From assembly GCF_900103885.1 (NCBI RefSeq), contig NZ_FNIM01000001.1:664138-728137 (forward strand): 64,000 bases of DNA. The letters run 5' to 3'. The stretch comes from Actinomyces ruminicola. GTDB lineage: Bacteria; Actinomycetota; Actinomycetes; Actinomycetales; Actinomycetaceae. How positions within the stretch are numbered: the first letter of the stretch is position 1; each line of letters begins with the position of its first letter. The position numbers and the translations under genes were made by a program. Below the pieces are notes generated by a model that had not been told where the DNA came from, did not search any database, and saw only the letters and a program-made list of their open reading frames with translations. Below are positions 12,370 to 46,608 of the stretch, piece by piece.

Positions 12370-12778
12370 GTTCCTCCGTCGGTGCTTTCTCGCTGGATAC
12401 TCCAGCCGACGACGACGCCGCCGGCCTGGCGCGCTCGACCGGACGCCCTCGCCTTGCCCGGTGCCGCTCAATCGGCGGGCAAAACTGCCGGACGCCGGAT
12501 CTCAGGCGCGCCGCCCGCCAACGATACGGCAAACCTGCCACGTCTGACCACCGCGGAGGGGCATTATCCAGCGGTGTTTCCCGACACACTGCGCATCTCG
12601 GCCCCGGCGCGTCGCCGGTTTCAGCTGCTGAGGGCGGTCCCGACCGATCTCGGCACGTAAGTTCTACCGATCTCGGCACGTAAGTTCTACCGATCTCGGC
12701 ACGTAAGTTCTACCGATCTCGGCACGTAAGTTCTACCGATCTCGGCGAGATGGTCGACGCCGCCAGGCGGCCGACCAG
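12370..12778. other. Intergenic gap between map and infA
   Basis: About 409 bp without a believable gene; the open frames here are Arg-rich by-products of high GC. It separates secY-adk-map from the infA operon and must hold the infA promoter, which I could not place. The only clear structure is the 23-bp tandem repeat at 12645-12747. Confidence 0.7.
12645..12747. repeat. 23-bp repeat, four perfect tandem copies, locus 2
   Basis: Units CGATCTCGGCACGTAAGTTCTAC at 12645, 12668, 12691 and 12714, identical to each other, followed by an 11-bp partial unit. This is the largest array of the family in the window. It lies in the opposite orientation to the copies at 7.4, 32.5 and 45.9 kb and has one base changed at the centre of the AAGTT/AACTT core. 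Confidence 0.95.
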
Positions 12779-15555: not shown

Positions 15556-16250
15556 TCGGTGTCTCCTGTGGGCGGCTGGTGATGAATGTGGGATAAGGCG
15601 GGCGCCGACGCGGCTCGTGCGCCGACTACCGAGGCTGCCCGGGGAAGCACGTACCGCACCTTCCCGGGCATATTCCCTGGGCTACCCTACCCCGCTCGGC
15701 CGGTGGCGCCAGCCGCCGGGGCGCCAAGCCGGCGGGGTATCGGTCACGCACCCCGCACGAATGGCCCCCGGCTTCCACCCCGAGACCGCATCAGCCCCCG
15801 GCTAACCCAGCCCCAGAGGATGTGCGAGCCCAGGTGCGATTCGGCTTTCAAGCCAGGCTCCGTCAGTCCGTGGCGGAGCGCACCGCTACACTCCGCCCAC
15901 CTCCCCCTCCCGGGCACGGCTCTGCGAGCATCACCGGCAAGCCCGCGAGCTGCAGCATCCACCACCCCTTGAGGACGCCCACGAGCCCGCCAGGGCGGCG
16001 GCTCGCCTCGAGGAGGTCCCTGCGTCGACGCGTGTCGTCTGATGGCGTCTGGGACTACTGAGTCTCGTGCATTCTGGGGCCTCGGAGGTCGTGAGACTCT
16101 GGCGCTGGCACTACGGGGGTGCCTGCTGAGGAGACGCCGCAGTCGGCCGGGACCAGTCGGCCCGGACCAGGGGGCGTGGTTGTGCGAGGAGTGACAACCA
16201 GGGCATGCGACGGGCAACATCCGACCCCTCGGGTCTTGGGACGTGCCGAT

Positions 16251-16409
16251 CGGACCCCCTTTCTCCATTCGGACCCCCATTCTCCACTTGGACCGCGCGT
16301 GTCCACTCGGACCGCCTCAGAGCGCGTCTTGGACGGTCCAAACGGCGGCAGACGGTCCAAACGGCGGCAGGCGGTCCAACTAGCGGCAGACGGTCCAACC
16401 GTGCGCGGA
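16251..16409. repeat. 19-bp inverted periodic array A
   Basis: Left half: four units at 16251, 16270, 16289 and 16308, core (T/C)GGACC. Right half: four units at 16334, 16353, 16372 and 16391, core CGGTCCAA, reading as the inverse of the left core. Spacing is exactly 19 bp on each side. An imperfect palindrome at about 16308-16341 forms the centre. Same design as the arrays at 33.3 and 46.2 kb. Confidence 0.9.
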
Positions 16410-27561: not shown

Positions 27562-27598
27562 GCTCGCGGCGACCGCCCCACGCGCCGAGACACAAGCG

Positions 27599-27633
27599 AG
27601 GAGGCCCGCCACCGGTCGGGTGGCGGGCCTCCT
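27599..27633 (-). terminator. Hairpin terminator after tuf
   Basis: Perfect 15-bp inverted repeat AGGAGGCCCGCCACC (27599-27613 and 27619-27633) with loop GGTCG, 62 bp after the tuf stop. It ends the rpsL-rpsG-fusA-tuf unit. Confidence 0.85.
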
Positions 27634-27694
27634 GCGAGCCTCACCGCGGGCCGGAGCCCGCCGGGAGGTCAGCGCACGGGGCGCTGGAGCCGAG

Positions 27695-33331: not shown

Positions 33332-33472
33332 TTGGACCGGGTCCCTCCAGTTGGACCCCGTTTGCCTGGATGGACCCCGTCCCTCCAGTTGGACCGCCTG
33401 AGACAGCGTCTAGGACGGTCCAAGCAGAGCCAGGCGGTCCAAGCAGGGCTGGGCGGTCCAACTAGAACCAGG
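33332..33472. repeat. 19-bp inverted periodic array C
   Basis: Left units with core TTGGACC start at 33332, 33351, 33370 and 33389. Right units with core CGGTCCAA start at 33416, 33435 and 33454. The central palindrome spans 33389-33423. Exact 19-bp period on both sides, same orientation as arrays A and B. Confidence 0.92.
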
Positions 33473-33639
33473 CGCGGGCCGGCCGACCGAACCACAAGCA
33501 CCCACACACCCCAGGCACAACACCAACCTCCACCACCACACCCCCAAATCGAAGCAGCCGCTTATGTGGCGCTTCTGGCGTGAGAGTGTGGTGGCTACTG
33601 CGGAGCCGGAGACATCCTTAGTGCCCGGCTCTTCGTGCA

Positions 33640-45906: not shown

Positions 45907-45964
45907 GCCGAGATCGGTAGAAGTCACGTGCCGAGATCGGTAGAAGTTACGTGCCGAGGTCGGT
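45907..45964. repeat. 23-bp dispersed repeat, locus 4
   Basis: Two direct units (GAGATCGGTAGAAGTCACGT and GAGATCGGTAGAAGTTACGT, each followed by GCC) plus a partial third, about 265 bp upstream of the rpoB start. Same orientation as at 7.4 and 32.5 kb. Confidence 0.92.
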
Positions 45965-46162
45965 TGTGGGTGGGTTGTGGGCGCGGAGCGGCCCGGCTCA
46001 GGGACCACAGTCTTTTCTGGGTCACGGCGCGCCTGGAGGCTGGGGCTTGTCGGATTCGTCAACGTTCTTGGTGGCGGTGGGCTCCACGCGATCCTCGTGG
46101 GCACTGGTGCCGGCGGGTGGATCGTTCGGGCCAGGCCGGGCTCCGCGCCCCCCGGCCGGCCT

Positions 46163-46333
46163 GGTAACTCCACTTGGACCGGGAAACTCCACTTGGACCG
46201 GGTAACTCCACTTGGACCGGGTAACTCCACTTGGACCGGGTAACTCCACTTGGACTGCCTGAGAACGCGTCTCAGGCGGTCCAACCGCACGCAGGCGGTC
46301 CATCGGCACGTAGGCGGTCCATCCGTGCGCAGG
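46163..46333. repeat. 19-bp inverted periodic array B
   Basis: Five left units GGTAACTCCACTTGGACCG start at 46163, 46182, 46201, 46220 and 46239 and are nearly identical. The 19-bp centre is 46258-46276. Three right units with core CGGTCCA start at 46277, 46296 and 46315. The central palindrome (46250-46284) has a 15-bp stem with one T-G pair and a 5-nt loop. This is the cleanest of the three arrays. Confidence 0.96.
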
Positions 46334-46608
46334 CCGGCGCGTCCCCGCCAGTGGCCGGCGCGTGCCGCCCGGCGGTTCGCGTGTTGCGACGACGGTCCGT
46401 CACTTGGCGCCGGCGCTTCGCTGCTTGTTGCGACGGTTCGCGGGGTAGGCGCGCGAACCGACGCGGTACCTGACGAACCACCATCCCCACCGACCACCAC
46501 AGCACACCCGAACCGCGCACCCCCCGATAACCCGATAACCTCCGCATCGATAACCAGACAACCCGGCGGCGACCCGCAGCTCGTACCCACGCATCCCCCG
46601 AAACATGA

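Follow-up and report, generated by a model that had tools for sequence, protein, structure and literature searches.

Inverted 19-bp repeat arrays around a central palindrome in Actinomyces: probably a REP-like intergenic module, carried in part by miniature mobile elements and entered by an IS481-family element

Repeats of the REP/BIME type are associated with a RAYT (Y1) transposase, while miniature elements of the MITE type are short, lack a transposase and have inverted outer ends that match those of an autonomous element. According to excerpts of the papers cited here, a REP carries a GTAG or CGTC tag beside a palindrome of 20–40 bp (PMC3733652), and REPs serve as targets of insertion sequences, all nine copies of ISRm22 being located in REPs (PMC1525189). 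The excerpts further describe BrickBuilt of Porphyromonas gingivalis as a MITE that carries a 23-nt minisatellite (PMC4596501). Elements of the IS1202 family target dif/pdif (PMC10132070); the IS1202 group has been placed inside the IS481 family, whose members make duplications of 2 to 15 bp (PMC10045372). The arrays described below share features with each of these systems. They probably represent a genus-limited, REP-like intergenic module that is spread in part by miniature elements, is read by a protein and serves as a landing site for an IS481-family element.

The window, a 64-kb stretch of the Actinomyces ruminicola genome, contains three copies (A, B and C) of the array. In copy C (46163-46334), units with the core TTGGACC follow each other head-to-tail, and those of both sides point inward to a central palindrome. 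The features are as follows.

16250..16313, plus strand: left array of copy A, 4 units, three of which read TCGGACC
16307..16341, no strand: central palindrome of copy A
16335..16404, minus strand: right array of copy A, 4 units
33332..33395, plus strand: left array of copy B, 4 units
33389..33423, no strand: central palindrome of copy B
33417..33474, minus strand: right array of copy B, 3 units
33536..33559, minus strand: ISL3-like outer end flanking copy B on the right, with 4 mismatches in 23 positions
46163..46256, plus strand: left array of copy C, a partial unit followed by four TTGGACC units and, innermost, the core TTGGACT, at 19-bp period
46250..46284, no strand: central palindrome of copy C, 35 bp, a 15-bp stem with one T-G pair and a 5-nt loop
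46278..46334, minus strand: right array of copy C, three GGTCCA(A/T) units, 19-bp period

The cores of copy C start at 46174, 46193, 46212, 46231 and 46250 on the left (the last one reading TTGGACT) and at 46278, 46297 and 46316 on the right, every step on either side being exactly 19 bp. These coordinates bear out the five left and three right units of the first-pass annotation of this DNA. A tandem finder reported the sides as separate rows, 46163-46255 (97% matches) and 46273-46334 (83%). The centre had been taken for a separate palindrome of 19 bp; it is better described as the 35-bp palindrome 46250-46284, which includes the two innermost cores, 28 bp apart from core start to core start. 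The common layout claimed for copies A (16250-16404) and C was found, and copy B (33332-33474) has it as well. Copy C is located in the gap between two genes on the minus strand, which we take, by their translations, to be rplL and rpoB. A second dispersed family is also present, with one-directional arrays, a near-palindromic core (CCGAGATCGG) and a period of 22–23 bp, at 12643-12746 and 45907-45975 of the window and at loci L059, L061, L098, L145, L333, L379 and L209. One such array is about 200 bp from copy C, and the rplL-rpoB gap of genome G024 has both kinds.

The pattern F-F-centre-R-R, with at most 3 mismatches, occurred at 22 places in the A. ruminicola genome and at none with a reversed-pattern control, so the pattern of copy C is not due to chance. 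Overall, at least 38 array places, the window copies included, were found in this genome. Twelve of them, located at contig ends, are halves only, and some of the halves belong together as one array; four others (L050, L051, the first in L053, and L059) have units on one side only at the threshold of the script. The first-pass annotation had proposed a scan of this and related genomes, and the scan yielded dozens of copies in several Actinomyces species; the array is thus confirmed as a real and general feature. With the exact pattern and one genome each for 84,980 species, a set that may omit the A. ruminicola genome itself, all 79 stretches found (79/79) were from Actinomyces. The array-bearing species with names are Actinomyces succiniciruminis, A. 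ruminis, A. glycerinitolerans, A. haliotis and A. massiliensis. At up to 3 mismatches, 12 of the 49 genomes of the genus had arrays (the reversed control gave 0 in all). In the family, 13 of the 213 genomes had them, in 1 of 36 genera, with 0 of 164 genomes outside Actinomyces. The copy number was highest in G025 (76 arrays) and G024 (56). The viral contigs searched contained no exact array. The titles and abstract beginnings of the papers listed in full-text searches, and passages of PMC5313611 on array-bearing species, do not describe the arrays, which is weak evidence of absence. On the complete chromosome of G024 the polarity of the arrays seems, by eye and among the matches listed, to flip between the chromosome halves.

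The presence of arrays differs between species. The rplL-rpoB gap has an array in A. ruminicola, G024 and G028 and none in G025, G041 and G010 (6 of 30 rplL loci were parsed). When the gap of A. ruminis was aligned with 13 genomes scored as array-less, 12 were confirmed empty and one (L219) gave a weak signal, of a kind seen in 19 of 591 random 250-bp stretches. L135 and L163 lack the stretch of about 626 bp that holds the array of L055, and L055 in turn lacks the array of these two loci. The empty sites, first scored with exact cores, were rechecked with one mismatch, upon which L154 versus L399 was counted as occupied; among the occupied pairs, L106/L107 was dropped as being within one species. 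With these corrections, 9 arrays at 8 loci had an orthologous empty site in another species, and 7 arrays (L053, L099, L112, L116, L119, L143 and L154) had an occupied partner in another genome. The L041 locus is occupied in four species, with differing spacers. Presence and absence at orthologous sites, as expected of a MITE, was thus observed. The arrays were intergenic in 93 of the 96 cases with genes called on both sides, versus 4074 of 20000 random 100-bp segments of the same loci; 31 of the 93 were in convergent gaps, versus 27 of 216 array-less gaps of at least 120 bp. Genes were called with a simple caller based on codon usage, and 14 arrays at locus edges were left out.

Some of these data would also be explained by a platform used by the host, in which the cores are coated head to tail, starting at the palindrome, by a nucleoid protein or a regulator, and mobile elements merely disperse the arrays. 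The same gap keeps an array in several species, and the core is kept while the spacers drift. The arrays also end abruptly, with no decay: the next position past the outermost unit had 2 mismatches in 42 of 220 cases, versus about 29 of 220 at random. However, 36 or 37 of the 49 genomes of the genus have no arrays, no link to particular genes was seen and the copies turn over between species, and we consider host use unlikely.

The geometry was determined from 110 distinct arrays of the A. ruminicola genome and of loci of the five named Actinomyces species, collected with a script that required the centre distance and at least 4 units and accepted units with at most 1 mismatch. Among the 506 unit steps, 475 were 19 bp and 28 were 20 bp, with one each of 17, 18 and 21 bp; the exact period claimed before therefore holds for copy C and is not absolute for the family. 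When the centre was not imposed, the distance between the innermost cores (start of TGGACC to start of GGTCCA) was 27 bp in 87 of 91 cases, 46 bp in 3 and 28 bp in 1. The per-base conservation of TGGACC was 97–100% over 726 units, which is partly an artefact of the search because units were accepted with at most one mismatch; the rest of the unit was conserved more weakly, best at positions 7 (C, 87%), 6 (G, 77%) and 14 (C, 75%). With matched ascertainment (116 outer neighbour pairs) the core showed 0.155 differences per 6 bases and spacer hexamers 0.286, that is, the core is kept only about 1.8 times better than the spacers, so the contrast is smaller than the raw conservation implies. The claim that period, inversion and core are kept while the spacers drift holds, also across species. 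At spacer positions 8–12 the identity was 0.68–0.78 for neighbouring units on the same side, 0.12–0.34 for opposite left and right units and 0.11–0.34 for non-opposite ones (110 arrays, 200 opposite pairs). In G005, G017, G032 and a few copies of G011 the palindromes are longer because the left and right spacers are also alike. As had been stated, the array is neither a simple tandem repeat nor a CRISPR; it inverts and its spacers repeat within a side, unlike a CRISPR with its unique spacers and its direct repeats of one orientation. The number of units is variable: in 18 otherwise similar copies the distance of the right end from the centre ranged from 92 to 170 bp, in steps of about 19 bp. 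The numbers on the left and right were weakly related (equal in 40 of 110 arrays, shuffled 31 ± 4).

These properties bring to mind a neutral minisatellite within miniature elements, in which slippage multiplies the units, these serve no recognized function and conservation reflects recent spread. It would account for the differing unit number of similar copies, for spacers that are alike on one side and differ between the sides, and for the modest advantage of the core under matched ascertainment. Against it, the cores are near-invariant in the five named species, changes on both sides of the centre preserve pairing and the IS481 element uses the core base-precisely (see below); we judge a neutral minisatellite to be decidedly unlikely.

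Related A. ruminicola copies share similar flanks of up to 755 bp. Three types of outer inverted ends recur: GGCTCTTCCGGTTT (first type), GTTATCGGCGCGA (second type) and GTCCTGTTGTGTAAGT (third type, flanked by CTAG). At least one type was present within 700 bp of 65 of 95 arrays, versus 13 of 227 places drawn at random from the same set of loci, and the same type was present on both sides of 36 arrays and of 0 random places; the test is partly circular, because array loci were the original source of two of the three end sequences. The 15 of 110 arrays without 700 bp on both sides were dropped. As for the matching ends of a MITE, 36 of the 95 arrays thus lie between such ends, and none of the three types was found within 700 bp of 30 of the 95 arrays and of copy C. 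IS1249-like ends around copy C were rejected, being no better than chance at the 2% level. For the ISL3-like right end of copy B, an equally good match occurred in 1% of 200 random 700-bp stretches.

The first type corresponds to the ends of intact ISL3 elements of about 1448 bp (G025, G041) and the second to those of intact IS1249 elements of about 1350–1370 bp (G025, G024). Inside these intact elements no array signal was found in 9 of 9 copies tested. Of the ISL3 and IS1249 transposases, the A. ruminicola genome contains fragments only. Each of the 8 IS1249 matches in G010 (8/8) runs from profile position 2 no further than 27 or 28 and is at most 300 bp from arrays, and 9 of the 11 copies shown for G027 come after a putative IS481 transposase start (read by eye). 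These associations with ISL3, IS1249 and a piece of IS481 suggest that the module was picked up by several unrelated kinds of element. CTAG is present at both ends of the third type (e.g. L098, L137 and L168), either as a duplication or as a portion of the ends themselves; in L055, the copy of the ISL3 type lacks an exact target-site duplication. Location inside a known insertion element, or mere drift of period and core in other genomes, had been named beforehand as outcomes that would refute the observation. The first is half true, many copies being in small derivatives with ISL3 or IS1249 ends; the second is not, as period and core stay conserved across genomes. In part, then, the arrays appear to be cargo, and often so, of small non-autonomous mobile elements. 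Insertions of about 1.3 kb in L114 and L158 were considered as autonomous array elements and rejected, no transposase-like ORF being seen by eye in the ORF lists; they look like nested remnants. The one in L114 (6315-7607, A. ruminis) consists of 1.3 kb of apparent element remnants with an array, downstream of a gene that we presume from its translation to be tuf, and is absent at the matching place of the window, around 27562-27694.

The visitor to the arrays was assigned to the IS481 family since both parts of its transposase match NCBIfam NF033577 (3.4e-19 and 4.8e-18); each scores below the whole-protein cut-off because each is partial. The element ends in TGT. It carries tandem end repeats (CAGGACATCGGTGACAGTT, period about 25 bp; L056, L060, L243 and other ends), of which most copies have two on one side and four on the other, the two sets being inverted relative to each other. 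Its plasmid relatives are distant only (5 records). In A. ruminicola the end repeat was found at 13 contig ends and at one degraded place (C25). All 13 clear junctions are within arrays, one falling in the first right unit, immediately beyond the centre; the count includes L186, which repeats the last bases of L171. The offset from the first base of TTGGACC was 20 or 30 in 10 of the 13, which are two mirror views of one cut; one other junction was at offset 19 and two came from a shifted insertion. The rule is TTGGA^CC with a 15-bp duplication. Duplications with matched sides, read by eye, were CCGTCTGAGAGCGCA, GCGCGTTTAAGACGG and CTGTTTGGACCGCCG in A. ruminicola, CCGCCGCAACCGGTG in G024 and CCACCTGAAACGCAC in G025. 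A core followed by the tip of the element was found in 3 of the 49 genomes; in G024 and G025, 5 of 6 junctions, obtained with a pattern that demands a nearby core, were at offset 20 or 30, and L332 was at 27 with an apparent extra tip in between. The preference is not exclusive: the same IS481 type is present outside arrays in G025 (2) and G041 (1), with 15-bp duplications, despite the 76 arrays of G025, and relatives in other genomes also insert outside arrays. That the array might be part of IS481, which is found at contig ends, was considered and rejected: the element makes its own 15-bp duplications, and most A. ruminicola array places are not split by it. In L260 (G010) an IS481-related copy lies within a different palindrome, CACGAACCGTCGTG, a possible hint that IS481 favours palindromes more broadly. 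In L039 and L040 an IS3-type element, the first protein of which matches HTH_Tnp_1, is seemingly inserted in an IS481 end and an array unit. In the draft assembly, 13 contig ends fall in IS481 copies inserted in arrays. An IS481-family element is available whose target rule is resolved to the base, and since cut and duplication are visible at this resolution, target choice by the transposase can be tested directly.

The IS481 ends, with their inverted tandem repeats (two and four), have a layout similar to that of the arrays, and insertion sequences that target end-like sites exist. The arrays might accordingly be clusters of binding sites from the ends of another transposon, for instance two abutted ones, targeted by a second insertion sequence. 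However, no gene-bearing element with TTGGACC arrays at both ends was noticed in the loci read, and the arrays have a conserved centre and a variable outside, the reverse of transposon ends; such an origin is highly improbable.

Pairing in the centre was analysed for 82 unique centres and 15 stem pairs. The stem was paired at 85.6%, versus 79.1 ± 0.7% in shuffles, and 108 changes were both-sided, versus 60.5 ± 6.5. Changes on both sides were present in 10 of the 15 pairs, versus 8.4 ± 0.9 in shuffles, a value reached by 56 of 500; pair 12 was mostly unpaired (60 of 82 centres). Controls in which the positions were slid gave far lower pairing. The covariation is support and not proof, because the shuffles leave relatedness in. 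The check for covariation of left and right units that had been called for was negative for the spacers, with none in 110 arrays and, in G011, 14 unit pairs without a clear difference; only the centre covaries. Judged by these comparisons, the centre is a maintained palindrome and the arms have no paired structure. The suggested structured RNA, in which left and right units would form stacked 8-bp stems, is hardly tenable: the left and right cores are complementary, copy C folds modestly better than shuffles (z of −1.68 on the minus and −2.35 on the plus strand) and the central hairpin covaries, but opposite spacers do not covary and agree no better than others, the unit numbers of the two sides are weakly related and an Rfam scan of the 64-kb window gave 0 families at gathering score.

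The observations thus comprise the architecture, the limits to the genus, carriage in part by small elements, turnover between species and IS481 at one exact place. In the preferred reading, that of a genus-limited REP-like module, spread would have occurred at least partly as cargo of miniature elements with ISL3, IS1249 and CTAG-flanked ends, and the number of units would change by local duplication and deletion. The module would act as DNA: its cores and palindrome would be recognized by a sequence-specific protein, most likely one involved in transposition. For the core, a protein-binding array is the likeliest interpretation; conservation in each unit, the fixed spacing and insertion precise to the base suggest that every core may be recognized. 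The array centre would then be a preferred, base-precise landing site for the IS481-family element, and the main consequence would be a tolerated intergenic landing pad. It is conceivable, though quite unlikely, that a DNA-binding protein that acts cooperatively or forms filaments nucleates on the arrays and proceeds from the palindrome outward over cores about 1.8 helical turns apart, and that IS481 reads the bound protein, as some transposons do with host factors, and is thereby led to one exact spot. If so, miniature elements that acquired the module would occupy genomic positions that are protected and tolerated.

The earlier statement that the array is not a REP is correct as to form, whereas its behaviour is REP-like: dispersed, intergenic, palindromic and a target of insertion sequences. 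The arrays are dispersed short intergenic palindromes, as REP/BIME repeats are, and they share with these, as described in part of PMC1525189, the frequent position between convergent genes and the specific insertion of an IS. They differ in their inverted arrays of a 7-base core, the 19-bp period, the fixed centre and the frequent location in IS-ended miniature elements. The visitor also differs, as the IS481 family is outside the five IS families named for REPs in that part of the source (PMC1525189). With BrickBuilt, as far as the excerpt goes, the arrays have in common a tandem array in a miniature element with inverted ends, the intergenic position and a limited host range (PMC4596501); BrickBuilt has a single run of repeats, whereas the Actinomyces arrays have two facing runs around a palindrome and at least three types of carrier end. 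The IS1202 elements, in the passages cited, are alike in that an IS has its target at a fixed distance from a recognized site (PMC10132070), this target being a Xer site for IS1202 and the TTGGACC array for the Actinomyces IS481 element. The 15-bp duplication of the latter conforms to the family range, 2 to 15 bp (PMC10045372), and the element is a visitor to the arrays, not the array itself. Overall, the arrays would constitute an additional REP-like class of repeats, with an unusual geometry.
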